Part shown: in pieces, positions 2,443-31,474 of the stretch
Position numbering within the stretch: position 1 is the stretch's first letter
Layout: each line of letters starts with the position of its first letter
Source of the DNA: Acidobacteriota bacterium
GTDB lineage: Bacteria > Acidobacteriota > Terriglobia > Terriglobales > Acidobacteriaceae
Assembly (NCBI GenBank): GCA_003225055.1
Contig: QIAU01000184.1
Coordinates: forward strand, 1 to 48,885
Direction of reading: 5' to 3'
Length of the DNA stretch: 48,885 nt
Position numbers and translations under genes: made by a program
Notes under the pieces: model-generated
What the model saw: only the letters and a program-made list of their open reading frames with translations
What the model was told of the DNA's origin: nothing
The model's database searches: none

Positions 2443-2504
2443 GCTCTTATCCTTTCTTCGTGACACAAACGTTGGGCAGGATCTGCAGTTCCCGACGGCG
2501 CTTC

Positions 2505-2533
2505 ATTGTGCCACAAATGAATCGTTTCACAAA
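2505..2533 (-). promoter_or_regulatory. Promoter of the isomerase-kinase operon with an overlapping LacI-type operator (2518-2529)
   Basis: Read on the minus strand, TTTGTG (2533-2528) is followed after 17 bases by CACAAT (2510-2505), a plausible -35/-10 pair about 60 bases before the ATG at 2442. The 12-base element TGAAACGATTCA spans the -35 edge and spacer. The element and the following TGTGGCA-AATGAA stretch are nearly identical to the promoter of the LacI-family gene at 8851-8879, which argues for the same regulator at both. Confidence 0.6.
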
Positions 2534-2634: not shown

Positions 2635-2646
2635 TGAAACGATTCA
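2635..2646 (+). promoter_or_regulatory. LacI-type operator upstream of the DUF4380-symporter operon
   Basis: TGAAACGATTCA, the same 12-mer as in the isomerase promoter, lies 132 bases before the ATG at 2778. A weak promoter TTCAAC (2622) with TATACA (2647) would place the element in the spacer. The 2443-2777 interval holds nothing else that looks coding, so it is a divergent regulatory region with one operator for each direction. Confidence 0.55.
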
Positions 2647-3761: not shown

Positions 3762-3832
3762 CGTCCATCTTCTCGGCGATGCTCGCACGCACGTGGGCGC
3801 CGACATCTCTGATCGCGGCAGCTTCGCGGGTG

Positions 3833-8850: not shown

Positions 8851-8879
8851 TTTTGAATCGATTCATTGTGTGGCAGAAT
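8851..8879 (+). promoter_or_regulatory. Promoter of the LacI-family gene with a perfect palindromic operator (8854-8865)
   Basis: TTTTGA (8851) and CAGAAT (8874) are separated by 17 bases. The perfect palindrome TGAATCGATTCA sits between them, so a bound repressor would block the polymerase, consistent with autoregulation. The site ends 37 bases before the ATG at 8903. Confidence 0.65.
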
Positions 8880-8902: not shown

Positions 8903-9952
8903 ATGTCAACCATCGTGGAAGTAGCAAAACGTGCGGGCGTTTCGGTTGGAACTGTTTCCAACGTCATTAGAGGAAATCCACGTGTCGGCCGTGAATTTCG
9001 AGAACGCGTCGAAGCCGCGATTCGCGAGTTGGATTACCACCCCAATGAAATCGCTCGCAGTTTGAAGGTGAATCAGACGTACATGCTCGGCATGGTGCTC
9101 CCAGACATCACTAACCCTTTCTTCCCGGAAATCATTCGCGGTGCCGAAGATCAGGCACTGCAACGGAGGTATTTGCTGGTGACGGCTAACACTGACGAAC
9201 ACATAGAACGAGAGCGAAGTATCGTCTCTGCTTTGCGCTCCCGCCGCGTTGACGGATTGTTACTGGCATCTGCCCCAGGAAAAGATAGTAGTCACATACG
9301 CAGAGTCATGGATGCAGGCACCTCGGTCGTTTGCTTAGATAGGGCCCCCGCCGGCATAAAGGTTGATACTGTGCTACTGGACAACGTTCGCGGGGCAGAG
9401 GATTGTGTCCGGCACCTGCTACGCGTTGGTTACCGCAAGATCGCCATTATCACAGGTCCCTTGGAACTGCAGCATGCGCGCGAACGATTGCGAGGTTATG
9501 AGAATGCTCTGCATGAAGTAGGCATCAAGGTCTCCGAGGAATTGATTCTAGAAGGAGATTTCCGAGAGGAATCTGGTCATCGTCTGGGAAAAGAATTGCT
9601 CCTTCGCCGAGTCCGTCCCTCGGCAATATTCGTGTGCAATGGCGTTATGACCCTGGGAGTGCTGCAGGCATTCGAAGAACTCGGGGTGCGGTACCCGGAA
9701 GACGTCGCGCTGGCTACGTTTGATGATCTCGCTGGTGACCGCTCGTTCTACCCGCGACTCACAGTTGTGGCGCAACCCGGTTATGAGATCGGCGCTCGCG
9801 CAGCTACTCTTCTGATGGATCGCATTGAAAATAAATTCAGCGGAAAAGCGGTGACGATACGAATGGCTCCGACTCTCATCGTTCGTGAATCGACGAGAGG
9901 GTCGGCGGTAGAACCCTCGAGGCCGCGCACGCACACACCTCTGTCCGTCTGA
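8903..9952 (+). CDS. LacI-family transcriptional regulator
   Basis: 349 residues. The N-terminal helix-turn-helix VAKRAGVSVGTVSNVIRG (residues 6-23) and the hinge segment NEIARSLKV are typical of LacI/GalR proteins; the rest is the periplasmic-binding-like effector domain (MLGMVLPDITNPFF near residue 60, TFDDLAGDRSF near residue 272). It would bind palindromic operators with a central CG as a dimer and release or bind them on sensing a sugar. ATG 8903 follows CTCGGAG. The matching palindrome lies in its own promoter and in three nearby regions, making it the most likely local regulator. It is convergent with the GH172-type gene. Confidence 0.92.
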   Translation: MSTIVEVAKRAGVSVGTVSNVIRGNPRVGREFRERVEAAIRELDYHPNEIARSLKVNQTYMLGMVLPDITNPFFPEIIRGAEDQALQRRYLLVTANTDEHIERERSIVSALRSRRVDGLLLASAPGKDSSHIRRVMDAGTSVVCLDRAPAGIKVDTVLLDNVRGAEDCVRHLLRVGYRKIAIITGPLELQHARERLRGYENALHEVGIKVSEELILEGDFREESGHRLGKELLLRRVRPSAIFVCNGVMTLGVLQAFEELGVRYPEDVALATFDDLAGDRSFYPRLTVVAQPGYEIGARAATLLMDRIENKFSGKAVTIRMAPTLIVRESTRGSAVEPSRPRTHTPLSV

Positions 9953-10001: not shown

Positions 10002-12179
10002 TCATCTTGCCACTGGAAGCACGAAACAGTAAACCGTATACTTGATTTCGCTCCAGGCCTGCTCTGCCACGGGGTAGCCTGGAAACAGAGGGCGGGTGAC
10101 GGGAGTAAATTTTATTCTTATCCAGATCGAACGGCGGCCACGAGTGAGCTCACGTGAGATGAGGAATTCATCATCGCGGAACCGCCGGTTCGAGGTTTCC
10201 ACGTTGTGTTCTGTCGCTCCGAGCTCCTGCGCTGGATTCGAATAGACGCACGAATTCGATCCGGCGAGGTACCAAATTCCTGCAAGCTTCCAATCCGACC
10301 GTGTTTGATCTGAGACGTAAACCTCCGCTCTCTGGTCCGGAAAGGAATAGTCAAGTTTGCGTCGAAGCAACACTCCAAGGTTATCCGATCGAAGCTGCAC
10401 GTGAAATTCCGATGTTCCTTTGGTTACTCGTCCTGTATCGGTTTTGGCCGGATATATCTCTTTGCCGTTCAGAGTATCCACACCCCACTCGTAACGGGAC
10501 GTGAGCTCGTAGGGCGGCGACGCCTGCGGAGACGAGTAACCATGCGAACGCTCATCGGCCATATCGCCCACATGAAGTTGATCGGTTTCCACCAGCGAGG
10601 GCGAGGGGAGGCCGTACCAGTACGTCACAGTTTCGTAGTGTTGCTCGGAATCATCCATGCCTCCGTGCTCCAGGCGAATCTCAGCATTCTTGCCGAATGG
10701 CATGAGATCTGCCAATAAAAACCGGTAAGCGGATTCGATTTTGTCTTCATCACTGGATGCGGTCTCTAGGTTGCGCGCCCCGACGGGATGGCCAGCGAAG
10801 GGCAAGGTCATGTTTAGACCACCCCAATAATCGCCTCCTCCACCCCATTCTTCTGTTCCCGTACCTTGGGCCTGCGGAGTAAGGCTGTCGTCGAAGAAGA
10901 ACCGCGGATCGCCCTCCAGCGTGCCGAAATCCGCCTGGTGCGAGAAGATGAATGAAGTGCCTACAAAGCTTCCTGACCAGTCTCCCCCTCCCTCAGTGAT
11001 GCGCGTATCGAGCAGAACGAGATCGCGTCCCGGTATTGGCTGAGGAAAATCGTGGTACGTTGCATGAAAGTAGGAAACTTGGCTCGCGCGCTCATGCAGC
11101 GGAAAGTAGCGCAGGGTCCATTCAATTCCATTAACCGGTGGGCCCGCTGACCTGAGCTCGATTCGCGCGGATCGGAAGAAGGGCATCGGAAAGTAGCACG
11201 CAAGATACACATCATCTTCCGAGAAGCGTATGTTCACGGGAAAGGCTTTGACCAGGAATTCGCGATTGTCGCGGTTGTAGAGCGTTCCCGCTCCATAGAA
11301 AAGCGCGATTGGAGCATCGATGGAAGGTTGTTTCCTTCCATCCCAGGTCACGCGCAAGTGAGCTCGTTCGAAAGCGAGCGCCTGCTTACGAGGAATAGAA
11401 AACTTGAGCGTGGTGAGCACGGCCCTGGCCCTTACCTTCGCCACAGTCACCGTCTCTCCTGCCGCAAGATGAATCCTTCCACCTACTTCTTTCCCCAGAT
11501 TCGGAGCAATGTCACTTCCCGCTTTGGCGATTAGATCGAGCACGTCCCGAGCAGGCGCAGATTTCCCCTCCCAACTCTGCAGTGGATGAGTCAGTCGCGT
11601 GCCCGGCACGAAGCGGTCGAAGATGTAATATCCGGTGCCATAGTGGGTTCGCGTGTAGGCCATTTGCAAGCTTCGTTCGAAAGAAATTGGCGTCCAAATG
11701 AGGTCAGAGCCTTTTGTTGTTGTCCAAGTGAAATCCAGCGGTTGGGGAAACGGTAAAGATGGAAGGAATATGGAATCTGCCACAGGCTGCAAAGGATTTG
11801 CTGTGCTGGTCTCCTGTACCAGATGGTCGGTTCCATCTACAACGAAGTGCCATGGGCTGCCGTGCCAGTGATTGTAGCGGCTAAAAACCAGCATTCCGGG
11901 TCCTTCCAGGTCGAGGGTCACGTTGAATTCGTCAGAGAGTTGATACAAAAAATGCGCTGCATCCGCTCCCTCATTGCCGCCGCCACGATCGTAGGTGCTG
12001 CGCATGTATGCGCGCATGCCAATTCTTTGATCAGCCCAGTGATCCCATGATCGATATGCATCAAGTCCAATCGGTATTGCGCGGGGTTTTTCGGCCGAAT
12101 ACGCCAGTCCAGCCAGCGCAACAGCGCAAACCCAAGAATATAGATAGCGGACATTGCAGCTAAAGATGGCGGCTTTCAT
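10002..12179 (-). CDS. Large secreted GH172-type (DUF2961) glycoside hydrolase
   Basis: About 725 residues from ATG 12179, beginning with a signal peptide (YLYSWVCAVALAGLAYSA). The DUF2961 core includes YFPMPFFRSARIELRS, FHATYH and QGTGTEEWGGGG. GH172 enzymes are retaining furanosidases acting on alpha-D-fructofuranosides or D-arabinofuranosides. Two glutamates, E422 (LEGDPRFFFDD) and E443 (GTGTEEW), are 21 residues apart, matching the catalytic pair spacing I recall for the founding member. A C-terminal beta-rich region of about 180 residues makes it longer than its two relatives in this window. The frame extends upstream to 12287, but that part lacks a signal. Substrate unknown. Confidence 0.8.
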   Translation of the reverse strand: MKAAIFSCNVRYLYSWVCAVALAGLAYSAEKPRAIPIGLDAYRSWDHWADQRIGMRAYMRSTYDRGGGNEGADAAHFLYQLSDEFNVTLDLEGPGMLVFSRYNHWHGSPWHFVVDGTDHLVQETSTANPLQPVADSIFLPSLPFPQPLDFTWTTTKGSDLIWTPISFERSLQMAYTRTHYGTGYYIFDRFVPGTRLTHPLQSWEGKSAPARDVLDLIAKAGSDIAPNLGKEVGGRIHLAAGETVTVAKVRARAVLTTLKFSIPRKQALAFERAHLRVTWDGRKQPSIDAPIALFYGAGTLYNRDNREFLVKAFPVNIRFSEDDVYLACYFPMPFFRSARIELRSAGPPVNGIEWTLRYFPLHERASQVSYFHATYHDFPQPIPGRDLVLLDTRITEGGGDWSGSFVGTSFIFSHQADFGTLEGDPRFFFDDSLTPQAQGTGTEEWGGGGDYWGGLNMTLPFAGHPVGARNLETASSDEDKIESAYRFLLADLMPFGKNAEIRLEHGGMDDSEQHYETVTYWYGLPSPSLVETDQLHVGDMADERSHGYSSPQASPPYELTSRYEWGVDTLNGKEIYPAKTDTGRVTKGTSEFHVQLRSDNLGVLLRRKLDYSFPDQRAEVYVSDQTRSDWKLAGIWYLAGSNSCVYSNPAQELGATEHNVETSNRRFRDDEFLISRELTRGRRSIWIRIKFTPVTRPLFPGYPVAEQAWSEIKYTVYCFVLPVAR

Positions 12180-12330
12180 CGTGAATGCGCGGCGGATGCG
12201 CCGCGAACCATGAAATTTCAATGCACAATTGAGAGTCCTCTCCTCGGCATCATCGCAGTATTCGTCGCCAGAGATTCTACTCGCCAAAAAACCTTGACAG
12301 CCTCTTAACCCTGTGCTTCAATCCTTTCGC

Positions 12331-12342
12331 TGAAACGATTCA
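12331..12342 (+). promoter_or_regulatory. LacI-type operator between the GH172 gene and the first TonB operon
   Basis: TGAAACGATTCA, identical to the site at 2635. It lies 112 bases before the TonB receptor start (12454) and 152 bases before the divergent GH172 start (12179), so it could serve either or both. No strong -10 is visible in either direction. Confidence 0.55.
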
Positions 12343-12453: not shown

Positions 12454-15400
12454 ATGAAAACCAAATTGTTTTTCGTTCTGCTTCTTGCGCTCGCTATTGT
12501 TTCCATGCCGAGCCGCGTCCTCGCTCAGGCTGATCGCGGAGCGATCAAAGGCGAGGTCCAGGATGTGCAAAAAGCAAATGTGCCCGGCGCGCAGCTCACT
12601 CTGAAGAACGAGGCCACTGGAGTTTCCGCAAGCACAATCTCCAGCGCTTCGGGAGAATTCAATTTTCTCAATCTCGCGCCCGGCAGCTACACTCTCATGA
12701 CCGCGGCGAAGGGGTTCAGCACTGCGACGCAGGAGCATATCTCGGTCGCAGTAGGGCGCACCCTAGGAATCACGGTCACGCTACAACCGGGCTTGGTGGA
12801 GCAGACCGTCACCGTATCCGCAAATGCGGCCTCGATTGATACCCAGACTTCGGATATCGGAACGGTGATTACTCCCCGCGAAATCAAAGATCTGCCCGTG
12901 CCCCTCAGCGGCGATATGCGCAATCCGCTCAGCTTTGTCGTGCTTACGCCCGGGGTCAACGGATCTGTGCCGGGCGCCACGCCGGATTACCGGCTGCATA
13001 TCAGCGGATCCGCAAGTTTTTCCGACGAAGTTTACATCGATGGCATTCCGGTGTCGAATACGAACTTCACCGGTGATATCAGCAGCAATCATCCGCCGAT
13101 CGATGCGATCAGTCAGTTCAAACTCGTCAATAACAATGAGAGCGCACAGTATGGTCTCTCAAGCGGCATCGTGTCGTTCGCCTTCAATTCCGGCACAAAT
13201 GCATATCACGGGAGTTTATTCGAGTTTCTGCAAAACGACGCGCTAAACGCCGCGGGTGCTGTCTTTGATGCTTTGCGAGCTCGCACGGATTGCACCGTCA
13301 CGCCACAGCCGACGGCTTGCAAAAAACCTGGGCTGAAACAACATGAGTTCGGCGGTACATTCGGTGGTCCAGTATGGATTCCAAAAGTGTACAACGGTCG
13401 CGACAAGACCTTTTTCTTTGTGGACTTTACCGATTTCAAGTTTCGCCCTAGCGCAATCAACGGGAGCCTGACAACTATTCCAAATGCGTATCGCACAGGA
13501 GATTTTTCCCAAGCACTCGGCCCGCCGCTCACCGCCAATGGTCAGCCCGTCTTTGATCCTGCTGGGCGTCCGGTCTACCAAGGCGAGATCTTCAATCCCT
13601 TGTCGGTTCACACCGTCACAGGTCCGGACGGCAAGCCGTACCAGATACGTGACCCATTTCCAGGAAACATAATTCCTCCTGGTTTTGCCGGCCTAAGTAA
13701 GGTTTCGCAGAACGTGCTGAAATACTTTCCCATGGCGGACAACAATGCGATCTTTAACAATCTTGTGCGCAAGCAAGGATCAAAAATCGATCAGTACCGA
13801 ATGGTCGTCAAGATCGACGAACATATATCGGAAAAGCATGCGCTATCCGGCAGCGTGTTCACGGGAAATTCCAATTTCAGCAACAATGGCGGTTTGAATT
13901 TGCTGGATGCTGTTTCCACGGTCACTCCCAGCAAGCAAATACGCTTTACCTATAACTACGCCCATTCTCCAACTTTGGTTAACAATCTCAATATTGGACT
14001 TCTTCGCGATGAAGGCTTCAATGGACCCCTTCAGGCGGGGCCCGGCTTTGCCGCTTTAGGAATCTCCGGCTTAGCGCCGCTTCAGAGCAGCAGCCCATTT
14101 CCTCAGATCGGGCTCGGCACCCTTATCAACGGTATTGGTTCCACAACGGGAGGAGCTTTGGCCGATGCGGAGAATCGGTTCATTGAGAACGATAATCTGA
14201 CGATGGTTCGCGGCAATCACACGTTCAGCTTTGGCGGGGAGTTGCGGCGACTGCAGCGCAACAATAGCGGTATCGCCAGCGGCAGTTTTGTCTTCGAGCC
14301 CACTCAGTCGGCTCTGAACGGAACTGGCTTCATCAATGGCAATCAAGCGGTCTCGATGCCGGCGGGCACCGGAAATCCAGTCGCCAGTTTTCTTTTCGGC
14401 GGCCCTGATTACATCCACATTGATTATCCCATTGCGCAGTATTACAGATGGTTGCAAGCTGGCGCTTATGTTCAAGATGACTGGAGGGCGCGACCGAATC
14501 TGACCTTAAATTTTGGACTTCGCTACGATGTCCAGGTACCACGGACAGAGATCCGTGGAAATGTTTCAAGTATGGAGCCGACGCTGGCTAACCCTGTCGC
14601 CGGGGGTCTACCGGGAGCATACAGCTTCTTCGGCAGCGGCCCCGGGCGCAACGGAGAGCCGCGCATCGGCAACACCTATGCCTTGGGATTTCAACCCAGA
14701 ATCGGGTTTGCATATTCTCCGGGAGCCCAACACAAAACTGCCTTTCGCGGCGGCTTTGCTGTAACCCGGCCAATCGGCAACGATAATATGCAGTCGGGCT
14801 TTACAGGTGGGTACAATTTCGGTTTTGCCGGGATCGCAAATGCCGTACGACCTCAGGACGCGGTAGGCTCCCCTGCCTATTTTTGGGACAATCCTTTTCC
14901 TGCGAATGGGGTCAGCGGCGCGAATCTTAATCCGGGACTTCTTGTTGGCAATGACAATCCTGTCTGGATCGGGTCGAACGTAGGCCTGCCTCCGACACAA
15001 CTTTACTGGTCGGCGCAGGTCGAGCACCAGCTTTCGAGCAGCATAGTGGCAAACATAGGGTATGTGGGGATGCATACTTACCACATTGGCATCTGGTCGA
15101 AACCAAACGAAGTGAATCCAGCCCTAGCACAACAGAAATTTGGTGCGGCCGCGGCGGGTGCAGGATTGCCATTGAACGAATTTCTAGCGTTGCCAATTAC
15201 GGATCCGAGGGCGGTAGCTGCGGGTGTTACTCCTCCATGGCCAGGCTTTGTTCCGACTTTAGGAGCGGCAGCTACGGTGGGCCAGTCCATTCGACCGTTT
15301 CCACAGTATGGCAGTGTCGATCACCCCGAAAATCCAATCGGCAGCATCTCCTACAACGGCCTGCAAACGAGTTTGCAAAAGCGATTCTCGCAAGGACTGA

Positions 15401-16230
15401 CATTTCTCGTTGCTTACACGTTCTCGAAGACGATCGGTGACGTCGATAGCAATATCAGTTACGACGCCGGGGCAGAAAATGCCATATTTGCCGGCTCTTT
15501 CTTCCAGGATCATTACAATCCCCAAGCCCAACGCTCCGTCACCAGCTCCGACATTCCACACGTGGTTTCGCTCAGTTACACCTACGAACTCCCATTTGGA
15601 CCGGGGAAAACCTTCTTGAATCGGAGTGGCGTAGTGGGGAAGATCGTCGGAGGCTGGTCCGTCAGCGGCATTCAGAAATATCAGAGTGGCCGCCCTATTC
15701 ACATTGAGTATGACGCCTTTGGCAGCTCCAATCCCTACAATGCGCAGGATGGTTTCAGCTTTCGTCCAAACATCGTTCCTGGTCAGCCGTTCAAGAATCC
15801 TGACTACAATCCAAGCTGCTCGGGTCCGGTGCAAACCACCGCAGGCCGTAATCCCTGCCAGTTTTACATAAATCCCGCGGCTTTGGTGGCTCCCCCTCCC
15901 GGTCAGTTTGGCGACGCTCCCAACTTAATTTCGGCGCTGCGCATGCCTGCATACCTGAATGAGGATCTATCCCTATCGAAGCGAATTCCGCTCGCGGAGA
16001 GTGTGGGTTTGCAGTTTCAGGCAAACCTCTTCAATGCCTTCAACCGGGTCGTCTGGTCCTCCGCGGGGCAAGCGGGATCACAGGGCAACGCGCAAACCTT
16101 CATCTTCAATGCAGCTCCGGCGAACCTAAGTCCGGCGTCTCTGGCAAATTCCAATACCATCTTTGGGATCTTTACTTCCCAGCAGAACGGGCCGCGAATT
16201 ATCCAGTTCGGTCTGAAGCTGGAGTTCTGA
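12454..16230 (+). CDS. TonB-dependent receptor, Oar-like, with carboxypeptidase-regulatory-like N-domain
   Basis: 1258 residues. A signal peptide (FFVLLLALAIVSMPSRVLA) is followed by a beta-sandwich of the CarboxypepD_reg type (GAIKGEVQDVQKANVPGAQL, residues ~28-115), a plug domain (ISGSASFSDEVYIDGIPV) and a beta-barrel ending in an aromatic residue (LKLEF), as expected for outer-membrane insertion. Such receptors import oligosaccharides or peptides with TonB energy; in Acidobacteriota they are greatly expanded. ATG 12454 follows CAGGAG. The TPR gene begins 4 bases after the stop. The LacI-type operator at 12331 lies upstream. Confidence 0.9.
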   Translation: MKTKLFFVLLLALAIVSMPSRVLAQADRGAIKGEVQDVQKANVPGAQLTLKNEATGVSASTISSASGEFNFLNLAPGSYTLMTAAKGFSTATQEHISVAVGRTLGITVTLQPGLVEQTVTVSANAASIDTQTSDIGTVITPREIKDLPVPLSGDMRNPLSFVVLTPGVNGSVPGATPDYRLHISGSASFSDEVYIDGIPVSNTNFTGDISSNHPPIDAISQFKLVNNNESAQYGLSSGIVSFAFNSGTNAYHGSLFEFLQNDALNAAGAVFDALRARTDCTVTPQPTACKKPGLKQHEFGGTFGGPVWIPKVYNGRDKTFFFVDFTDFKFRPSAINGSLTTIPNAYRTGDFSQALGPPLTANGQPVFDPAGRPVYQGEIFNPLSVHTVTGPDGKPYQIRDPFPGNIIPPGFAGLSKVSQNVLKYFPMADNNAIFNNLVRKQGSKIDQYRMVVKIDEHISEKHALSGSVFTGNSNFSNNGGLNLLDAVSTVTPSKQIRFTYNYAHSPTLVNNLNIGLLRDEGFNGPLQAGPGFAALGISGLAPLQSSSPFPQIGLGTLINGIGSTTGGALADAENRFIENDNLTMVRGNHTFSFGGELRRLQRNNSGIASGSFVFEPTQSALNGTGFINGNQAVSMPAGTGNPVASFLFGGPDYIHIDYPIAQYYRWLQAGAYVQDDWRARPNLTLNFGLRYDVQVPRTEIRGNVSSMEPTLANPVAGGLPGAYSFFGSGPGRNGEPRIGNTYALGFQPRIGFAYSPGAQHKTAFRGGFAVTRPIGNDNMQSGFTGGYNFGFAGIANAVRPQDAVGSPAYFWDNPFPANGVSGANLNPGLLVGNDNPVWIGSNVGLPPTQLYWSAQVEHQLSSSIVANIGYVGMHTYHIGIWSKPNEVNPALAQQKFGAAAAGAGLPLNEFLALPITDPRAVAAGVTPPWPGFVPTLGAAATVGQSIRPFPQYGSVDHPENPIGSISYNGLQTSLQKRFSQGLTFLVAYTFSKTIGDVDSNISYDAGAENAIFAGSFFQDHYNPQAQRSVTSSDIPHVVSLSYTYELPFGPGKTFLNRSGVVGKIVGGWSVSGIQKYQSGRPIHIEYDAFGSSNPYNAQDGFSFRPNIVPGQPFKNPDYNPSCSGPVQTTAGRNPCQFYINPAALVAPPPGQFGDAPNLISALRMPAYLNEDLSLSKRIPLAESVGLQFQANLFNAFNRVVWSSAGQAGSQGNAQTFIFNAAPANLSPASLANSNTIFGIFTSQQNGPRIIQFGLKLEF

Positions 16231-16234: not shown

Positions 16235-17689
16235 GTGGCTATGCTCGCAAAATTATTCGCGTTTTTTAGCATAGCCTTGCCTCTGCTCCTCTGTGCCCAA
16301 CCATCTCCCCACGAGATCGCTGCACACGCAAAGGCGGCACAGGCAGCGGAACAGCGGAACGACTTTTCGACTGCCGTCCATGAGTACGAATTTGTGGCAA
16401 AGGCCCTGCCCCAGAACGCGGAAATGCAAAGCAATCTGGGGGTAGCGCTGTACTTCAACCATGATCTCAAGCAGGCCATCCGCATCTTTCGAAGAGCGAC
16501 AGCGATGAATCCGAGCTTGCTTGCGCCACATCTGTTCGCCGGGTTGTCATCGTACCGATTGTCTGATCCGAACGCGGCGGTACAGGAGCTGGAAAAAGCT
16601 GTGCAAATCAATCCAGCCGATGTCATCGCTCACACCTGGTTAGGGTATGCCTATACCGCACAAAGCCAATATGAAGCGGCTTTAAAAGAGTTTCAGGCAG
16701 CCCGCCGTCTCGAGCCCGGTAATATTGATGTCTGGTATTCGCTGGGAGAGACTTATCTGCAAATCGGGAGAGAGGCGACACTGGAGTTGATTGCTGTAGC
16801 TCCAGATGGAGGCAGAACCTGGCAGCTGGCGGGAGAGCAATCGCAGCTGAAGGGCGACCCTCAGGAGGCGCTCGAATGCTACAAGATGGCGCTGGAGCGT
16901 CGCTCCGACATCCCGGAGCTGCGCTCACTCATAGCCGACTTGGGTGGAACCGCTGCGTCCGCTCTGGGCCCCTCCCAAAATGGAACAACACGGGAAGATG
17001 AGATTTATCGAAGAGCCCATGATGCGGAGCAGGAGTCGCGGGCAGCTTTTGAGCACGTAGTCCAGATGGCACCGGATTCGTACCGCTTCCACCAAATTTT
17101 GGGCGATGCCTTTACGGCCGAAGAAAAGCAGTCTGAAGCAATCGAGGAGTATCGAACAGTATTGCTATTGAAGCCAGACTTGCCGGGTATCCACGAAGCA
17201 ATTGGCAATAATCTGCTGCGCAGCGGCAAACCGGCGGAAGCTCTTCCGGAATTTGAGGCAGAACTTCAGCTGCAACCCTATTCCGCCAGCGCATACACGG
17301 ATCTCGGACAGGTGTTTCTGATCATGGGCAAGGACGAAGAAGCTGCCAACATGCTTAACAAGGCACTGCAGATGGATCGACCACCCATCGAAGTTTACCG
17401 CCTTCTGGGAAAGGTAGAGTTGCATCGCAAACAATTTCAATCAGCCGTAGAAAACTTCACCCGTTATGTGTCGGTCAGGAGTAGCGACTCGAGCGCTTAT
17501 TACCTGCTCTCGCAGGCTTATCGAGCGTTGGGCAAAAAAGACCAGATGAATCAGGCACTGCAACAGTTTGAGAAAACTTCGCAGGACGTGAAGGCCAGGA
17601 GTAAGGCGCAAGCAAGGCTTCAGGCGCTAAATCGTCAAGGCGAAGTTACCGATGAAGCCAGAGAAGTCGAGCCTAAGCAAATCCACTGA
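16235..17689 (+). CDS. Secreted TPR-repeat protein, partner of the TonB receptor
   Basis: 484 residues, with a signal peptide (LFAFFSIALPLLLCA) and then about ten tetratricopeptide motifs, for example VHEYEFVAKALPQNAEMQSN, AVQELEKAVQINPADVIAHT and ALKEFQAARRLEPGNIDVW. It begins 4 bases after the receptor stop (GTG 16235, or ATG 16241). A protein of nearly the same length sits in the same place in the second operon (33973-35421). SusD, the usual receptor partner, also has TPR-like helices, so a ligand-delivery role is plausible, but this is inference. Confidence 0.85.
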   Translation: MAMLAKLFAFFSIALPLLLCAQPSPHEIAAHAKAAQAAEQRNDFSTAVHEYEFVAKALPQNAEMQSNLGVALYFNHDLKQAIRIFRRATAMNPSLLAPHLFAGLSSYRLSDPNAAVQELEKAVQINPADVIAHTWLGYAYTAQSQYEAALKEFQAARRLEPGNIDVWYSLGETYLQIGREATLELIAVAPDGGRTWQLAGEQSQLKGDPQEALECYKMALERRSDIPELRSLIADLGGTAASALGPSQNGTTREDEIYRRAHDAEQESRAAFEHVVQMAPDSYRFHQILGDAFTAEEKQSEAIEEYRTVLLLKPDLPGIHEAIGNNLLRSGKPAEALPEFEAELQLQPYSASAYTDLGQVFLIMGKDEEAANMLNKALQMDRPPIEVYRLLGKVELHRKQFQSAVENFTRYVSVRSSDSSAYYLLSQAYRALGKKDQMNQALQQFEKTSQDVKARSKAQARLQALNRQGEVTDEAREVEPKQIH

Positions 17690-17727
17690 ATCGGAACGAA
17701 GCCTAAGATTCGCACGAGTGCGATGCT

Positions 17728-18951
17728 ATGCACTACATCTGTGATTATCACGGCGTGATCGCGGGAACGCCGGGTATCGATTTGCTGCGTGAACCCTTCG
17801 CCGACGGTGACATTGGTTTCACTAACCCGAAGAGGGTCGATTGGTGGGAGCAGCAGTTGCGAGAGATTCTCATCGACTACAGCTTCGATGGGTGGATGGA
17901 AGATTGTGGCGAGTGGGTAGCCGACACCGATCGCTTCTTCTCTGGCAAAACTGGTCGCCAGATGACAAATCTGTATGCGTTGCTCGATCACGAAATTAGG
18001 TGTGAAATCTGCCAACGAGCGAAACCGCATGAGGTCGGATTTGTTCGCTCTGGTTACGCTGGGTCCCAAGGCTATACGCGGGTAGCCTGGGGAGGCGACC
18101 CTTCGGTAGTTCCGGCCGGCGTGACGGCGGGGCTTTCCGGCTTTGCGGTGTGGGGACCCGGTATTAATGGAAACGGCTACTCGAAGGAACTCTGGATTCG
18201 CTGGCTGGAATTTGGTGCGCTGAAGCCAGTCATACGCGATGATCCTTGGGATAAGCCTGCTGCCGCCATTAACCTTTGGTACGACTCCGAGACGCTCGAT
18301 CTGTTCCGACGCTACGCCGGCCTGCACATCTCGTTATTCCCTTACTTCTATACTTATGCTGGTGAAGCAGCGAAGACGGGATTGCCAATCATTCGACATC
18401 CGATGCTCGAGTTTTCGGAAGATCCACAGGCATACAAGGCGGAAGAAGAGTACCTGCGCGTGAAAAAGTTATTAGTCGGTCCTGTCGACTACTGGGCTGG
18501 GGAGCTATTTACCGGTGGCGGCGACATTAGAATGCCTGCACCTCTCGACCAAATCCCCATACTGATGCGAGCGGGCAGCATCATTCCCATCATCAGCGCG
18601 GAAACTCAGCCATTGGCAGCGGATACAGTAGAGGGAAGTTCAACCTTGGCAGGAAGCTTGACTTGGAGAGTATTCCCTGCACCGCAGCCGTACCGTGACG
18701 CTTTTGCCCTGTGTGACGGCGCAGTCGCAACCGTCTACCAGGATGCATCCATGATCACAGTCCAGGTCAAGAACTCCCCTGTGGCTCACGATTATGAGGT
18801 GATTGTGCCGGCAACAGAGTCACCTCGGGAAGTCCATGCGTCAGGCAAAACTCTTCAGAAGATCGATTCAAACGATCATCGAACTCGCGAAAGTGGATGG
18901 TGGATGGACCCGAAAGATAACACAGTGCGGGGTGCGGTTGTCCGCAGGTGA
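17728..18951 (+). CDS. GH31 glycosidase fragment lacking its N-terminal half
   Basis: 407 residues matching only the C-terminal part of a GH31 alpha-glycosidase, a family usually 650-800 long. The nucleophile motif FDGWMEDCGEW (D59) and the acid/base region ending VAWGGDPS (D124) are both present, as are the end of the barrel (SLFPYFYTYAGEA) and the C-terminal beta domain (DQIPILMRAGSIIPI). The N-terminal beta-sandwich, the first barrel strands and any signal peptide are missing. The preceding TPR gene ends only 38 bases upstream, so the loss is a clean 5' deletion. The GWMxDxGE form resembles the sulfoquinovosidase-like branch. Probably not functional. Confidence 0.75.
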   Translation: MHYICDYHGVIAGTPGIDLLREPFADGDIGFTNPKRVDWWEQQLREILIDYSFDGWMEDCGEWVADTDRFFSGKTGRQMTNLYALLDHEIRCEICQRAKPHEVGFVRSGYAGSQGYTRVAWGGDPSVVPAGVTAGLSGFAVWGPGINGNGYSKELWIRWLEFGALKPVIRDDPWDKPAAAINLWYDSETLDLFRRYAGLHISLFPYFYTYAGEAAKTGLPIIRHPMLEFSEDPQAYKAEEEYLRVKKLLVGPVDYWAGELFTGGGDIRMPAPLDQIPILMRAGSIIPIISAETQPLAADTVEGSSTLAGSLTWRVFPAPQPYRDAFALCDGAVATVYQDASMITVQVKNSPVAHDYEVIVPATESPREVHASGKTLQKIDSNDHRTRESGWWMDPKDNTVRGAVVRR

Positions 18952-19008
18952 TTTCGTAATCGATATCTCACGCTAGGTACTTCGCAAGGTGAGACGAGCT
19001 GGTGGCAC

Positions 19009-20760
19009 ATGGATGATCTCAGCTTTAGGTCGCCGCGTCCCAGACGTAGGTGCGACGCAAGTACACAGATTATGCTCCTCAGTCTTAGAGTCCCGCGTGG
19101 GTTACTCACAGGGGGTGTAGGCCTTCTGCTGGTAATGAGTATCGGCTGCTCCAAACGAGCAGTGTCGCGGCGCCCTTCTGTCCCGGTGCCTTCGGCGGCG
19201 ACGCAAAGACTCGCTCCTGCCCAGAGTACATTTTTCTCGACCGCTGCAGAGGAGTCCTATTCGACGTACCAGCTTGCCGGCGATGGGGATCTATGGCCGT
19301 CCTGCTGGGCCGACGACGATAACTTGTACACGGCGAATGGAGACGGCAAAGCTTTCAACGGAGGCTCACGACTCTACGACATGGCCGTGAGCCTCGTCTC
19401 CGGTATGCCTCCGAACTTGAGCGGAAGGACCTTGGCAACCGACGTAGGCACAAATTGGAGCGGTCGGCACTACAACCGCAAACCCACGGGAATGCTGTGT
19501 GTGGATGGCGCCATCTATCTCGCATTCCAAAACTTGCAAAAGCGCCATTTTGATGACGCCCCTGCAGCATCGATCGCCAAATCTACCGATCACGGGGTCA
19601 CCTGGACGTGGGATCGTACCGCTCCGATGTTCGGCGCATCGCGGCGCGCGAGCGATCCAGCAGCCCATAAGTTTACGACCATATTTTTTCTCGATTACGG
19701 CAGGAACTACGGCAATGCGATCGACGGCTTTGTTTACGCCTACGGCCTGGATAACAATTGGCGAGACCAGCAGGATCTCTATTTGGCGCGCGCGCCAAGG
19801 CGCAGCATCCTTGATCGCCGCGCTTGGGAATTCTTTGCCGGAGTAGATTCGAGCGGGGTCCCTGCCTGGTCAAGCGATATCGGAAACAAAAAGCCCGCGT
19901 TGACGGACAACCGCTCGCTGTATCCGGTGGTATTCGGACACGGATGCCCCCACAAGCAGCATGTCATCGCTCAGGGTGGCGTGGTTTACGACGCTCCCCT
20001 GCACCGCTACATCTTTGCCTCGTGGTCCTGCGCGACGCAACAATTTTATGAGGCGGCGAATCCGTGGGGGCCTTGGAACCTATTCCTATCTGACGATTTC
20101 GGTCCATTACGCCTACCTCACAACTATGGACAATATGGCACTAGCATTCCCTCGAAGTTCATCAGCACCGATGGCTTGACTCTATACCTACAGAGCAATG
20201 TGTGGGTCCACGCGTACACTTTTTCTTTGCGCAAATTGTACTTGCAGACGTATAGCCCGGTAGGCCCGGCCAACCACCTGTCGGACGTCGATCTCACGCT
20301 CGCACCCGGAGCCAGAGCAATCAGCAAGAGCACTCATTTTGGATCTCTATGCGCGTTGAACTGCGCCGATCAGATCAGCGGCAGCAACGGAAACAAGAGC
20401 GAGGACGACTTTGACGAAGAGACAAAGACGACGGACTGGTGGGGCTACATCTGGCCTCAGACATACACGATAAACACTGTCATATACAGGACCGGAAGCA
20501 TGTTTCCGAGAGGCGGCTGGTACGCTCGCACTCTCCGAGTCCAGGTACGCCAAGACTTTCGTTGGATCGATGTGCCGGAAGTTACTATAAGTCCCTCGTA
20601 TCCCTATGACCGCAGAGCAGGAGATTACTCTACTTATACCTTTACCTTTAAGGCGGTGTCGGGAGACGGCGTGCGCATTATCGGAACGCCGGGCGGGGAT
20701 TCTCATTTCACTTCGATCAGTCACCTTGCCGTCTATTTCACTCAGCGTGGCCCTTTATAG
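19009..20760 (+). CDS. DUF4185-like beta-propeller lipoprotein with C-terminal discoidin-like domain
   Basis: 583 residues. A lipoprotein signal ends LLLVMSIGCSK. The central region has the spacing of DUF4185 propellers: GDGDLWPSCWADDDNLYTAN, MAVSLVSGMPPNLSG, KPTGMLCVDGAIYLAF, STDHGVTWTWD, DGFVYAY and EAANPWGPWNL. The last ~150 residues look like an F5/8-type carbohydrate-binding beta-sandwich. DUF4185 includes the endo-D-arabinanases now placed in GH183; assignment to that activity here is inference. The start could be ATG 19009 or 19072; neither has a strong ribosome site. A GH172-type gene starts 16 bases after the stop, so the two are surely cotranscribed. Confidence 0.65.
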   Translation: MDDLSFRSPRPRRRCDASTQIMLLSLRVPRGLLTGGVGLLLVMSIGCSKRAVSRRPSVPVPSAATQRLAPAQSTFFSTAAEESYSTYQLAGDGDLWPSCWADDDNLYTANGDGKAFNGGSRLYDMAVSLVSGMPPNLSGRTLATDVGTNWSGRHYNRKPTGMLCVDGAIYLAFQNLQKRHFDDAPAASIAKSTDHGVTWTWDRTAPMFGASRRASDPAAHKFTTIFFLDYGRNYGNAIDGFVYAYGLDNNWRDQQDLYLARAPRRSILDRRAWEFFAGVDSSGVPAWSSDIGNKKPALTDNRSLYPVVFGHGCPHKQHVIAQGGVVYDAPLHRYIFASWSCATQQFYEAANPWGPWNLFLSDDFGPLRLPHNYGQYGTSIPSKFISTDGLTLYLQSNVWVHAYTFSLRKLYLQTYSPVGPANHLSDVDLTLAPGARAISKSTHFGSLCALNCADQISGSNGNKSEDDFDEETKTTDWWGYIWPQTYTINTVIYRTGSMFPRGGWYARTLRVQVRQDFRWIDVPEVTISPSYPYDRRAGDYSTYTFTFKAVSGDGVRIIGTPGGDSHFTSISHLAVYFTQRGPL

Positions 20761-20776
20761 ATAATGGAGGAACAAA

Positions 20777-21907
20777 ATGGCGCGGTTCACACTGCTCAGC
20801 ATACTTGTTTGTAGCTTTATGCTTTCTGCTTATGGCCAGACTTCGGGTTGGCAGCCAGATCTCAGCCGACAGCAAACGTATGTGGCGCACCGGGCCTCGA
20901 GCGCCGACCCGACGGGGGCGAATGCAGATTTCCGTTCAGTTGCGCCGGGTACGACTCTAACCGTGTTAGATGTCGATGGTCCGGGTACGATCTCGCACAT
21001 TTGGTTCACGATTGCGGATTCCGAGCCCTATCACCTGAAGCGCATCGTACTGCGCATTTATTGGGACCAAGAACAATCACCCAGTGTGGAAGCCCCGATC
21101 GGAGACTTCTTTGGACTTGGACTTGGCTATTACTATCGCTGGCAGTCCGAACTGCTCTCGGTCGGGAGCGACAAGAGCTTAAACTGCTTCTTCCCCATGC
21201 CGTTCCAGGGTCACGCGCGGATTACCGTTACCAACGAAGGCGAGCGGCCCATTGGGAGCTTCTACTACAACATTGATTACCGGACAGATTCTCATCCATT
21301 CCCTGCTGACATTGTGTACTTCCACGCGCAATATCAGCAGGCGCAGCCGAATCGCGGTTGGACGAACTCCTGGACGAATAACCAGGATCCGTCCGTGAAT
21401 AATCGCACCAATTTGAGCGGGCAGGGCAACTATGTATGGATGGAGGCGAAAGGGCATGGGCAGTATGTCGGAGTAACCATGTCGGTGCTGCAGAATCAGG
21501 ACTTCTGGTGGGGAGAAGGGGACGACATGTTCTTCATTGACGGAGAAACGACGCCCTCGATTGTGGGAACCGGATCGGAAGATTACTTTCTAGGTGCCTG
21601 GGACTTCGGCGGCAAGCCGTTTTCCTATCAGTTGTACGGCGCCCCCGTTGTAGGGGAGGAGTTGGCGGGCAGCAGGTCGAGCGTGTATCGCTTTCACCTG
21701 GATTCTCCCATTCCCTTCCATCAATCATTCAAAGCGACGATCGAGCATGGGAATGCGAACCACCGCTCCGACAACTATTATTCTGTTGCGTACTGGTATC
21801 AGGCCGAACCTCATCAGCCGTTTCCGCCGTTACCGCCTGTTGCGCAAAGATTGCCGGCGCTGCAGATGGTAGGAGGGCCGGGCAATGGTCCGGCTCACTC
21901 CGAGTAG
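20777..21907 (+). CDS. Secreted GH172-type (DUF2961) glycoside hydrolase
   Basis: 376 residues with a signal peptide (LLSILVCSFMLSAYG). Family hallmarks appear in order: GPGTISHIWF (~69), LRIYWDQEQSPSVEAPIGDF (~92), CFFPMPFQGHARI (~137), YFHAQYQQ (~181), DFWWGEGDDMFFIDG (~242) and GTGSEDYF (~264). E247 and E268 are 21 residues apart, as in the catalytic pair recalled for GH172. The start ATG 20777 follows TGGAGGAACAAA. It forms a pair with the DUF4185-like gene. The last residues (GPGNGPAHSE) and stop coincide with the apparent 3' end of an antisense group II intron, so the tail may have been altered by the insertion. Confidence 0.88.
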   Translation: MARFTLLSILVCSFMLSAYGQTSGWQPDLSRQQTYVAHRASSADPTGANADFRSVAPGTTLTVLDVDGPGTISHIWFTIADSEPYHLKRIVLRIYWDQEQSPSVEAPIGDFFGLGLGYYYRWQSELLSVGSDKSLNCFFPMPFQGHARITVTNEGERPIGSFYYNIDYRTDSHPFPADIVYFHAQYQQAQPNRGWTNSWTNNQDPSVNNRTNLSGQGNYVWMEAKGHGQYVGVTMSVLQNQDFWWGEGDDMFFIDGETTPSIVGTGSEDYFLGAWDFGGKPFSYQLYGAPVVGEELAGSRSSVYRFHLDSPIPFHQSFKATIEHGNANHRSDNYYSVAYWYQAEPHQPFPPLPPVAQRLPALQMVGGPGNGPAHSE

Positions 21908-24720: not shown

Positions 24721-24796
24721 AATAATCTATGATTGCGAAATCCAAAATGTGAGGAATGAAGACGAGCAGTGCCTTTCTGAATAAGCTCGAGGTTTG

Positions 24797-24808: not shown

Positions 24809-24827
24809 TTGCGAAGTTGAGAATCAC

Positions 24828-28263: not shown

Positions 28264-29412
28264 TCAATTAATTTCCAATTGGTCTTTTGCGGGCAGTTTC
28301 GGAAAAGTCGCGTGAGGCTCGGTTTGGTACCAGAATGCGACAGAAGAGATGTCGTCTGTCAGGGGCAAATACCTCCCACCGCTTCTCCATCCCAGCGCCT
28401 GGATGGTCACGCGCAGATCAGACACGAAGCGAATCGGGTCAGGGATGTGCCAGCGGTAAAGGCCAAATCTCTGCTGCGACTGGTAAAGTCCGTCGGGCTT
28501 GATAACCTGCACTAATCCGGAATAAGGGCTGGTGAATTCTTCGTACTGATGTCTCTCTGAATTCTCAAAATCGTAGGATCCATTAAAGTAGTCTTCCGTG
28601 CCCGTTCCGTTGATGGTGGGGTACTCCCGGTCTCCATCCAGGTAAAACTTGATTTCTCCTTCTCCCCACCAGCCGTTGTTGTGTACACCCCAGGCCATAT
28701 AGGTTCCGACGTATTGGCCCCTACCCTTGATGCCGTCAAGAATCGTGTAGACCTGCTTATAAGGAAGAGGATTCACTCGCCGAAACTGGGCGTGGAAGTA
28801 AGCTGCATCTGCGGGCACCGACGATAGCGCGTAGTCCACCTGGTAAAAGAGAGTTATGGCTTTGTCGTCGAGATTCTCGATGGTGATTCTGGCCTCCTGT
28901 TGGAACGGCATGGGCCAATAAGAGTTGAAGGCGCTGCCCGGATTCACACAGACTGCCAGGGAAGAAATCCTGGCATACTTTCCCCAACCCATGGCAAAGA
29001 AATCACCCAGCGGCACTTCGACAGACGGCTCCTTTTCACCATCCCAGTACATGCGCAGAATGGAGAATCGCCAGTTGCCGGTCGGCGTCATCCAGATGTG
29101 CTGAATTGCGCCGGAGCCACGGATCTCGGCTACCGTGTACGTCGCTCCCGCAGCAATGTCCACCGATGGGCTGATTTTCCAGCCTTTGCCCAGATCACGC
29201 GCGGCCTTCGCCCCGGTCCCCTCCGTTAGAGTGCCGCCTTTGCCCTTTTCTCCGGTAGGGTTCTCCGGGCTGATGGACAAGGTTTTGGCATTGGAAAGCC
29301 GGTAGAGACTGCTCAAGTGATTGTCGAGCCCGCTGTAAGACGTTTCTTGGGCGATGGCAGTAAACGGGATCGAGAGGACCAGCACTGCAATAAAACACGG
29401 ATTCGTTCTCAT
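28264..29412 (-). CDS. Secreted GH172-type (DUF2961) glycoside hydrolase, last gene of the second operon
   Basis: 382 residues with a signal peptide (FIAVLVLSIPFTAIAQ). Family motifs in order: GSGAIQHIWM (~99), LRMYWDGEKEPSVEVPLGDF (~119), YWPMPFQQEARITIEN (~165), YFHAQFRRV (~205), GWWGEGEIKFYLDG (~247) and GTGTEDYF (~269). E251 and E273 are the likely catalytic pair, here 22 apart. The start lies one base after the stop of the GH127 gene (TGAGATG), so the two are translationally coupled. Coupling to a GH127 arabinofuranosidase fits action on furanose sugars; the exact substrate is unknown. Confidence 0.88.
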   Translation of the reverse strand: MRTNPCFIAVLVLSIPFTAIAQETSYSGLDNHLSSLYRLSNAKTLSISPENPTGEKGKGGTLTEGTGAKAARDLGKGWKISPSVDIAAGATYTVAEIRGSGAIQHIWMTPTGNWRFSILRMYWDGEKEPSVEVPLGDFFAMGWGKYARISSLAVCVNPGSAFNSYWPMPFQQEARITIENLDDKAITLFYQVDYALSSVPADAAYFHAQFRRVNPLPYKQVYTILDGIKGRGQYVGTYMAWGVHNNGWWGEGEIKFYLDGDREYPTINGTGTEDYFNGSYDFENSERHQYEEFTSPYSGLVQVIKPDGLYQSQQRFGLYRWHIPDPIRFVSDLRVTIQALGWRSGGRYLPLTDDISSVAFWYQTEPHATFPKLPAKDQLEIN

Positions 29413-29413: not shown

Positions 29414-31474
29414 TCACAAGCTCCTGTTGGCGGCTACGACAGACGCGGTTTTCTGTATCAGTGTGCCGCTGCAACTGGTTTGTTGGAACTTGGGTTCAGC
29501 GCCGCATGTGACAGTCTCCTCGGGCGAAGAACTCCGCACAGGGCTCTTCGGTAAGGGGCCGGCTGAGCCGTCAACCGCCTGCCATTCTGGAACGAGACGT
29601 GCCCGCATGATGAGTTCGACGGGCGGCGCACTCTCCGAAAACGGATACCCCCCGATAGGGCCCTCGACCACCTTGATCGAGCCCGTTGGATGGGCAGCAT
29701 CCACCACCAAGCCATAATTCCAAGGAGTTGTCGGCCGTACTTCCCAATCGGGCGCGAGAGCATCTTCGTCCAGCTTGGTCCAGTTCTCGCCTATTTTTAA
29801 CGAGAAAACGAGGGGACCGCGTTCGATGGCGATGGAATTGTTTTCCCAGCGCGAAATACGAGGTGCCATGGGAAACTTCGCCTCCACGCGATCGCCTTGT
29901 CTCCATTCTCGGTTGATAACGAGATACGAGCCGCTGCGTACGTCATTAACCGCAGTGCCGTTGACTGCAACCGTTGCCCCCGTGGCCCAAGAGGGAATCC
30001 TCAGCTTGAGAGGAAACGTTATCGCATTCTCTGGGTTTACCGTCAGTTGCACGCTTTCGCGAAAGGGATACTCGGTATCCTCGGCGATCCGGACTTTGGC
30101 GCTTTCGCCCAAGATCGCTTCGACTTCGCTGGGCGCGTAAGCGACGGCGGCCAATCCGCCATCTGCCGTGCTCATCCACAAGCTTGACACCAGCTTGGGC
30201 CAACCCTGATGCATGTTTGCCGTGCAGCAGCCGAATTCGGGGGTGAGCCCATACAAATTCGCATCCACGCCGTTGGTGGACCAATGACGCGGCCGGCGGG
30301 TGCAGGCGATCTGGTTGGGCTGTTGGTCGTATTGATGGGCCCACATGTCATCACGGAAGGTGCCGGGCAGTGCATTGAAAGCAACTCGCTCCAAACGATC
30401 TCCAAAGCTAGGATCACCCAGGTCAGCTGCGATAAGTTCATAGGAAAACATGGACTCAACTACAGCGCACAACTCAATTCCTTGCGAAGGGTCCGTTCCT
30501 GCAATGTGTTCATCTGCGCTGAACATGCCATTGGGAATTCCGTGGTACGTATCCAGCATCTTGATTTGCTGATAGATCGCGTTTCGATCTTCCTCCGAGC
30601 CTGAAACCATGAACCACACGGGGGACATCTTCAGCGCCATCGCGTTGTTGACACCATGAGTTTGCATGGCAGGATCGGGGAGCCCGCTGCCCCGCCCATT
30701 CAGAATCGAGCGATTCGTCTTGCTTGTGTATACAAAGTGTTCGAATTGCTGCTTCCAATCGTATCCCTGACCATGCAAGACCCTGGCCAAGTTCAAAAGA
30801 GACGCGTCGCCGGTCCGGTTGTACAGCCAGAGGATGCTCACGAGTTCATCCTGCCAGCGGTATTTGCCCCAATCCTGTAAAGGCCGTTTCGGGAGTTCTC
30901 GGGCCTGAAAGGCAAAGTAGCGCTGCATCAAAGGGATGACCCGGGGATCACCCGTTGCGTCCTGGTACTGGGTCAGGGCTTTTAAAATGATCATTCGTGG
31001 CCACCAGTCCTGATTCGCGGCTGGACCGATGGAACCGTCCGCGCCCTGGTGAGTCAGCGTCCAATCGACCCACTTCTGCACCTTGGCTTTCAGTTTTGCG
31101 TCGTCCAACAGGTACGCGAGCGGGACGAGGCCATCTAGAAAATACGGCCCGCGCTCCCACGCCTCGCCGGTTCCGCCCAGCCACGCGCTGTTAGGGCCGA
31201 CGTCAGACCACAACTCGTCGAGGTGACCACTCAGGCCATCCGCCTGAATCCGCAGTTGCCGTTCAAGCCAGCCTCTTGGCCGGATCGACGTGAGCGGCAA
31301 CAAATACATGGGGGTCGCTTGCAGAGGAGGACGATTCCTAAAGACTTCGTGCCTGTTTCCTTCTTGAGGAATCCGTCGCGGCGCCGATTCGAGGTAGTCC
31401 ATTTGCAGGGAGACACACGGTGCGCACAGAAGAACGAGGATCAACAACCAGCACGGCAACTGGCATGATTCCAT
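29414..31474 (-). CDS. GH127-type beta-L-arabinofuranosidase (DUF1680), exported
   Basis: 686 residues with a signal segment (LPCWLLILVLLCAPCVSLQ). It has the GH127 (alpha/alpha)6 barrel and C-terminal beta domains. The zinc-cysteine centre is complete: E334 and C336 in IELCAVVE, C416 and C417 in EFGCCTAN, with the likely acid/base E322 in SADEH, close to the positions known for Bifidobacterium HypBA1. The enzyme releases terminal beta-L-arabinofuranose or similar residues using cysteine as nucleophile. The last 30 residues (from TVTCGAEPKF) do not look like the usual ending, so a small indel near 29510 is possible. It starts 17 bases after the GH63-like gene. Confidence 0.88.
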   Translation of the reverse strand: MESCQLPCWLLILVLLCAPCVSLQMDYLESAPRRIPQEGNRHEVFRNRPPLQATPMYLLPLTSIRPRGWLERQLRIQADGLSGHLDELWSDVGPNSAWLGGTGEAWERGPYFLDGLVPLAYLLDDAKLKAKVQKWVDWTLTHQGADGSIGPAANQDWWPRMIILKALTQYQDATGDPRVIPLMQRYFAFQARELPKRPLQDWGKYRWQDELVSILWLYNRTGDASLLNLARVLHGQGYDWKQQFEHFVYTSKTNRSILNGRGSGLPDPAMQTHGVNNAMALKMSPVWFMVSGSEEDRNAIYQQIKMLDTYHGIPNGMFSADEHIAGTDPSQGIELCAVVESMFSYELIAADLGDPSFGDRLERVAFNALPGTFRDDMWAHQYDQQPNQIACTRRPRHWSTNGVDANLYGLTPEFGCCTANMHQGWPKLVSSLWMSTADGGLAAVAYAPSEVEAILGESAKVRIAEDTEYPFRESVQLTVNPENAITFPLKLRIPSWATGATVAVNGTAVNDVRSGSYLVINREWRQGDRVEAKFPMAPRISRWENNSIAIERGPLVFSLKIGENWTKLDEDALAPDWEVRPTTPWNYGLVVDAAHPTGSIKVVEGPIGGYPFSESAPPVELIMRARLVPEWQAVDGSAGPLPKSPVRSSSPEETVTCGAEPKFQQTSCSGTLIQKTASVVAANRSL

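Follow-up and report, generated by a model that had tools for sequence, protein, structure and literature searches.

A candidate D-arabinan utilisation system with a divergent DUF4185 propeller and GH172 enzymes in an Acidobacteriaceae genome

The contig QIAU01000184.1 of an Acidobacteriota bacterium (family Acidobacteriaceae, assembly GCA_003225055.1), 48,885 nucleotides long and called the window below, carries genes for a DUF4185 propeller protein, GH172 (DUF2961) proteins, TonB-dependent receptors, a FucI-like isomerase and a ribulokinase-like protein. We consider it probable that the window encodes a TonB-fed utilisation system for a polymer of alpha-D-arabinofuranose, most likely the D-arabinan of actinobacterial, mycobacterial-type cell walls. 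D-arabinan is mainly known from mycobacteria and related bacteria, where it occurs in arabinogalactan and lipoarabinomannan, and to our knowledge few enzymes cut it. Judging from sequence comparison and modelled structure, the cluster is best read as the known D-arabinan pathway of GH183, GH172 and FucI in an acidobacterial form, with an uncharacterised branch of the endo-enzyme. Profile search of the entire host genome, which comprises 7.4 Mb in 301 contigs and is 98.73% complete, gave one match to DUF4185 and three to GH172, and all four fall inside the window. The features are listed in Table 1.

The strongest marker of D-arabinan is GH172b, because 204 of 348 residues (58.6%) are identical to ExoMA1 and because it falls in the ExoMA1 clade. 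ExoMA1 is a proven exo-alpha-D-arabinofuranosidase (PMC10509167). In a tree of 29 GH172 rows, from which the cut sequence L001 and L021, a twin of L022, were left out, GH172b fell into a clade of 10 rows (support 98/94) that also holds ExoMA1 and the one GH172 that was found in the genome of a Nocardia brasiliensis. The Nocardia protein should, we infer, be NocGH172, the alpha-D-arabinofuranosidase assayed in PMC10115798. GH172a, the neighbour of the propeller, covered the entire profile PF11175 with 270.8 bits, in agreement with the family named in a preliminary description of this DNA. Both GH172a and GH172b have the catalytic Glu residues at the columns of positions 270 and 291 of alphaFFase1.

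A system for fructan (alpha-D-fructofuranoside) or L-arabinan would be a very unlikely alternative in our judgement. The best score of GH172a, 243.2 bits and slightly ahead of that for 4kq7, was against alphaFFase1, which acts on difructose dianhydride, and GH127 is by its Pfam name the family of beta-L-arabinofuranosidases. However, Gly299 of alphaFFase1 has been ascribed a role in binding fructofuranoside, and Asn253 of ExoMA1 one in excluding it (PMC10509167); the two residues share one alignment column, in which GH172a and GH172b have Asp, DgGH172c has Cys, the Nocardia protein and ExoMA1 have Asn, and Gly is found in alphaFFase1, GH172c and several rows of an Acidobacteriaceae genome (G057), Paenibacillus and Microlunatus. 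The genome also has another, presumed pentose cluster on contig C104. The preference of the preliminary description for D-arabinan over fructan or L-arabinan was supported: D-arabinan is favoured because GH172b lies in the ExoMA1 clade, GH172a and GH172b carry Asp instead of the fructosidase Gly, relatives of the FucI-like protein lie near ExoMA1-type GH172 genes in Microlunatus and G057, and no match to GH32, GH43, GH51 or AraA was listed among the 27 open reading frames of the window scanned with profiles.

The frames at 17728-18951, 19009-20760 and 20777-21907 all lie on the plus strand, 16 bases separate the last two, and a receptor gene and a TPR gene precede them, all of which is consistent with the earlier statement that genes for DUF4185 and GH172 proteins follow one for a TonB receptor. 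The product of 19009-20760, which had been assigned to DUF4185 by eye, matched PF13810 with 47.5 bits against a cut-off of 39.5, spanning only positions 75-222 of the 309 in the profile. A C-terminal F5/8-like domain reached 17 bits, below the cut-off, and by eye the frame has an alternative start at 19072 and a Cys47 within an atypical lipobox. Aligned as profiles by HHalign, canonical DUF4185 and the branch to which the window protein belongs matched with a probability of 98.1% (E 5e-13, 289 columns). EndoMA1 was the first Foldseek hit for both AlphaFold2 (AF2) models of the protein, and VIA-align, with the model of the trimmed catalytic domain, placed it on top (Z 22.8, 3.2 A, 276 residues), followed as the next other protein by 4hbs (Z 16.8), with GH43 enzymes at about Z 16; structure prediction thus puts the modelled fold closest to the five-bladed propeller of EndoMA1. 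Asp94 and Asp112 correspond to the nucleophile Asp33 and the acid-base Asp51 of EndoMA1, with a spacing of 18 in both proteins. This pair is kept in all 23 branch rows, and HHalign pairs the same residues; at the two positions Asp was kept in 9/9 and 8/9 canonical rows, and in 12/13 each of the intermediate acidobacterial and other rows. Arg252 matches Arg198 of EndoMA1 (subsites -3/-2) in two alignments and is offset in the larger one. All branch rows have Glu348, whereas no canonical row has Glu at that column. Tyr376 was considered as a further mark of the branch and dropped, being aligned differently in two alignments.

In a tree of 45 DUF4185 rows the canonical rows were split from all others with support 100/100. 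The branch was not cleanly closed, as three intermediate rows fell inside its set of 26, and the window row was placed, on a long end branch, in a set of 18 rows together with Nocardia and most rows from the family of Gandjariella (97/85), which hints at transfer from actinobacteria. Left out of the residue counts and of this tree were L004 and L041 (near twins of L003 and L032), L005 (near L003), L091 (C-terminal piece only), the KBS 83 protein (split frames), L036, L045, L062, L064-L068 and L072 (weak or redundant), and L069 and L070 (no match there). For five Pseudonocardiaceae-type rows (L075, L077, L078, L080, L082) the range was trimmed manually so as to leave the catalytic domain.

A pattern scan of genome contigs found eight relatives of the branch: three Nocardia records, two Microlunatus, Gandjariella, Paenibacillus and Acidobacteriaceae KBS 83. 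In two Nocardia genomes the Pfam scores of canonical DUF4185 proteins ranged from 190 to 402 bits and those of the branch from 32 to 37. Matches were present in four of 100 relatives, namely the host's own genome, G041 and, weakly, G057 and G095; G041 and KBS 83 (G105) gave identical matches at identical coordinates and were counted as one. In a sample of 396 Acidobacteriota genomes 18 had any match, of which only that of the window itself was near full length (860 bits, the next 115.7), and KBS 83 was not among them. No relative of the branch was found on viral contigs. In the family of Gandjariella a branch member occurred at E 1e-40 in 19 of 297 genomes. A GH172 gene lay beside it in five of the 19 (G104, G599, G712, G756, G771), with matches less than 160 bases apart, about 3 kb from it in G555 and 9 kb in G618, and in the other 12 genomes on another contig, far off or absent. 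In Paenibacillus, GH172 directly adjoins the branch member. The sets of MFS transporter, GH172 and DUF4185 genes in Gandjariella and two relatives (L106, L101, L103) resemble the window in that GH172 is paired with a DUF4185 protein of this very branch and a sugar transporter gene lies ahead (before GH172 in 3/3 pairs scanned), but they are uncharacterised, GH172 comes first, and it belongs to the DgGH172c side of the tree (96/94). Since DUF4185 comes first in the window and its GH172 is of another lineage, the pairing appears to have arisen at least twice.

Both the FucI-like isomerase and the ribulokinase-like gene of the preliminary description are present, and the pathway logic it drew from them is supported, although the kinase gene is truncated, as described below. 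The FucI-like protein scored 28.5 bits against Fucose_iso_C (PF02952, cut-off 29.3), where its relatives L096, L050 and that of KBS 83 reached 31.1, 31.0 and 22.4, and it is 60% identical to the homologue in KBS 83, 68% to that in G057 and 59% to those in two Microlunatus. In KBS 83, of the same family as the host, the genes follow in the order TonB receptor (64% identical), TPR (59%), GH31 (866 residues), FucI (60%), ribulokinase, MFS transporter, GH172a (77%) and LacI (67%), with the DUF4185 gene divergent from the receptor. The KBS 83 ribulokinase is full length (529 residues, NCBIfam 514 bits, cut-off 428). Beside that cluster, at 4703-10159 of L046, lie SIS-domain, PfkB kinase and amidohydrolase genes and a gene for a 681-residue protein with no Pfam match at E 1e-4; that they handle an amino-sugar decoration is a guess. 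In G057, also of the same family, homologues of FucI, SSF transporter, mutarotase and GH172b are consecutive (68, 83, 71 and 75% identical). Contig C10 of this genome (L050/L051) has four GH172 genes in about 15 kb, including the ExoMA1-type one beside FucI, SSF and mutarotase genes, and represents a larger acidobacterial system. In two Microlunatus the FucI homologue is found about 5 kb from an ExoMA1-type GH172 gene and a LacI gene, and in L096, the only one of them scanned with Pfam, a GH116 gene lies between FucI and GH172.

Exact copies of the operator TGAAWCGATTCA occur at 2518, 2635, 8854 and 12331, each upstream of genes, and this amounts to 5 strand-matches against 0.05 expected, with 3 at most in 100 shuffles. 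The operator described earlier as common to the receptor side and to the FucI and kinase side is thereby located at four places. The second half of the window has no exact copy of it. The helix-turn-helix sequences of the LacI proteins differ between the window and its relatives.

In the proposed D-arabinan system a LacI repressor acting on the TGAAWCGATTCA operators would control the first half of the window. The propeller, probably located at the surface, would cut the polymer internally, the TonB receptor would import the pieces, and GH172a and GH172b would trim alpha-D-arabinofuranose ends in the periplasm. D-arabinose would then be taken in by the SSF transporter and isomerised by the FucI-like enzyme to D-ribulose, from which a ribulokinase would yield D-ribulose 5-phosphate. 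This kinase step would have to come from elsewhere, because the local kinase is broken.

Two groups of observations weigh against this reading, the first of them concerning the enzymes. The column of EndoMA1 Glu243 holds Gln in 23/23 branch rows (Gln322 here) and Glu in 9/9 canonical rows; in EndoMA1 this Glu is essential and positions an Arg that holds subsites -3 and -2 (PMC10509167). Because of this replacement the protein is not filed under GH183: it looks GH183-like by modelled fold and Asp pair, yet one defining residue fails and it is not canonical, so that the assignment by eye holds for DUF4185 but not for canonical GH183. By phmmer the protein had no relative in PDB at E up to 1, and the FucI-like protein had none at E up to 0.1. 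The AF2 models are mediocre, with a mean predicted local distance difference test score (pLDDT) of 57.8 for the first and 63.1 for the trimmed catalytic domain, and below 50 in the stretch of the Asp pair; AraH2, the second solved GH183 structure, scored no better than GH43 enzymes (Z 15.9). With 37-41% identity to characterised GH172 enzymes, GH172a sits in its own clade of four acidobacterial rows (98/99), which is not placed firmly with either DgGH172c or alphaFFase1, and it is no more than a candidate for the exo-D-arabinofuranosidase type suggested earlier. Asp at the specificity column occurs in none of the characterised enzymes compared, and since Gly is found there inside the ExoMA1 clade (two Microlunatus rows) and inside the GH172a clade (one G057 row), the residue gives a hint and no rule. 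A GH116 like ExoMA2 was not identified. Within 10 kb of the branch member there is no GH172 in the loci of Nocardia and Microlunatus, the nearest in the two Microlunatus being about 36-50 kb away.

The departure at Glu243, with its role at subsites -3/-2 (PMC10509167), would also suit another glycan of alpha-D-arabinofuranose, such as an arabinan of O-antigens or glycosylated pili of Gram-negative neighbours, where Gln for Glu would mark a different chain or linkage; D-arabinofuranose is reported from the pili of Pseudomonas aeruginosa PA7 and mentioned for a few lipopolysaccharide structures (PMC10115798). We regard this as rather unlikely, as six of the eight branch loci of the genome scan are actinobacterial, three of them from Nocardia, of an order with D-arabinan in its walls (PMC10509167). 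A more specific view of the branch is conceivable, which we put forward tentatively and hold to have clearly less than an even chance: it would be a sister family to GH183 in which the retaining Asp/Asp pair is kept and the third site is rewired (Gln for Glu243, and Glu348), cutting D-arabinan in a different region or at a different decoration, or else a different chain of alpha-D-furanosides, with GH172 as a recurring partner, and passed between actinobacteria, Paenibacillus and acidobacteria.

The second group of observations concerns the state of the genes. The ribulokinase has 239 residues, the stretches matching residues 1-160 and 442-520 of the 529-residue KBS 83 kinase, and is without 281 internal ones (161-441 of that kinase), by which it is probably inactive. 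GH31 lacks its first 431 residues. Neither loss, nor the closeness of GH172b to ExoMA1, was mentioned in the preliminary description. At the deletion points one 13-base pair of repeats was found in 1-900 and none in 17500-17900. Contig C104 encodes a full-length ribulokinase, 66% identical to the KBS 83 kinase, but this gene adjoins its own FucI-family isomerase, so that its serving the window pathway is a guess. The DUF4185 gene of KBS 83 (L047, 7849-9552) is broken into three segments in different frames, with 57-61% identity of each to the protein of the window, reflecting either sequencing error or recent decay. Neither the KBS 83 locus nor that of G057 has the TGAAWCGATTCA operator. That the window is a decaying relic, homologous to a D-arabinan system and no longer working in this strain, has been weighed and given little probability: the shortened kinase and GH31, an SDR gene without its first half and a group II intron directly behind GH172a speak for it, whereas the DUF4185, GH172, receptor, FucI and transporter genes are long open frames, the catalytic residues of the GH172 and DUF4185 proteins are kept, and the C104 ribulokinase might replace the broken one.

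Table 1. Features of the window discussed in the text, with positions, strand and evidence.
Feature	Position	Strand	Evidence
Ribulokinase (FGGY), in-frame internal deletion	44..763	-	ribulokinase model matches, comparison with 529-residue relative
FucI-like isomerase, candidate D-arabinose to D-ribulose	802..2466	-	PF02952 28.5 bits (cut-off 29.3)
LacI-type operator upstream of FucI	2518..2529	-	exact motif match
LacI-type operator upstream of mutarotase/SSF genes	2635..2646	+	exact motif match
Mutarotase-like protein	2778..3761	+	TTE1925 family, 285 bits (cut-off 550)
Sodium:solute (SSF) transporter	3758..5500	+	profile match
Large 796-residue protein 3' of SSF gene	5757..8147	+	no family match over cut-off
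LacI-type operator, perfect palindrome, upstream of lacI	8854..8865	.	exact motif match
LacI-family regulator	8903..9952	+	Pfam
GH172c, long divergent DUF2961 protein	10002..12287	-	PF11175 134.9 bits
LacI-type operator between GH172c and TonB receptor	12331..12342	+	exact motif match
TonB-dependent receptor with carboxypeptidase-like regulatory domain	12454..16230	+	Pfam; 64% identical in KBS 83
TPR protein	16235..17689	+	Pfam; 59% identical in KBS 83
GH31 remnant (second half)	17728..18951	+	matches residues 432-852 of 866-residue relative
DUF4185 propeller, candidate endo-D-arabinanase	19009..20760	+	PF13810 match, fold model, alignments
GH172a, candidate exo-alpha-D-arabinofuranosidase, signal-peptide-like start (by eye)	20777..21907	+	PF11175 270.8 bits
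GH172b, ExoMA1 clade	28264..29412	-	321.4 bits DUF2961; 58.6% identical to ExoMA1
GH127-like protein, 1 base from GH172b	29414..31474	-	Pfam
Six-hairpin-like glycosidase	31491..33917	-	Pfam match below cut-off
Second TonB-dependent receptor, upstream of GH172b genes, same strand	35421..38984	-	Pfam

On the minus strand GH172b, the GH127-like gene, the six-hairpin-like gene, a TPR gene and the second TonB receptor form an operon by position. The six-hairpin-like protein had no relative in PDB at E 0.01. A histidine kinase at 39693-41858 (-) with an N-terminal domain like 3-keto-disaccharide hydrolase (PF06439) has a sugar-binding protein and a response regulator of LuxR type as neighbours, and is a possible sensor for this second operon. 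Candidates for further roles were rejected. The frame at 25560-28250 is not taken as GH116, its DUF608 match being partial (35.5 bits) and its best Pfam match MGH1-like, nor as a beta-D-arabinofuranosidase, as no arabinofuranosidase was named among its 17 PDB matches. The strong DUF608/GH116 match on contig C228 (448.7 bits) shares only some 24% of residues with the GH116 of Microlunatus and was given no role. GH127 as an enzyme for beta-D-arabinofuranose was dropped, the GH127 and six-hairpin queries having no match in the neighbour loci compared. The group II intron, at 22045-23868 (-), carries a reverse transcriptase and matches Rfam RF02005 at 23643-23868 (121.7 bits), and beyond it lies the SDR gene (24756-25331). 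The second pentose cluster on C104 (L111) comprises an SSF transporter 68% identical to that of the window, the fucose-isomerase-family protein and the full ribulokinase, together with a fragment of a receptor and a protein that by eye resembles aldose epimerases.

The window pathway resembles published D-arabinan clusters in the same logic of isomerase and kinase (PMC10115798, PMC10509167). In the polysaccharide utilisation locus PUL42 of Dysgonomonas gadei, also a Gram-negative host, DgGH172c (locus tag 02479) is next to DgGH4185a/b (02480, 02481), and there are three GH172 genes and a fucose isomerase (PMC10115798). Its two DUF4185 enzymes are proven GH183 and a putative GH116 is present, whereas the window, from another phylum, has just one DUF4185 protein, a divergent one, and in addition GH31 and GH127-like genes and a regulon under LacI. 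In the D-arabinan locus of Microbacterium arabinogalactanolyticum (EndoMA1/2, ExoMA1, ExoMA2; PMC10509167) the isomerase and kinase are putative, as in the window, to which it is also linked by the likeness of ExoMA1 to GH172b and by the fold modelled for the DUF4185 protein; it differs in its ABC transporter, exo-enzymes described without signal sequence, conserved Glu243 and the GH116 ExoMA2.

Among the matches listed in a literature search, mostly without subscription journals, there was no D-arabinan system of Acidobacteriota, and a search of the same kind for GH172 in acidobacteria found no paper. The cluster offers a branch of candidate endo-enzymes of potential use in the analysis of arabinogalactan, and poses a question for mutagenesis: by what means an active site like that of GH183 could function when its essential Glu is replaced by Gln. 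For the biology of the host group, it suggests that acidobacteria in soil may feed on the wall polymer of actinobacteria.

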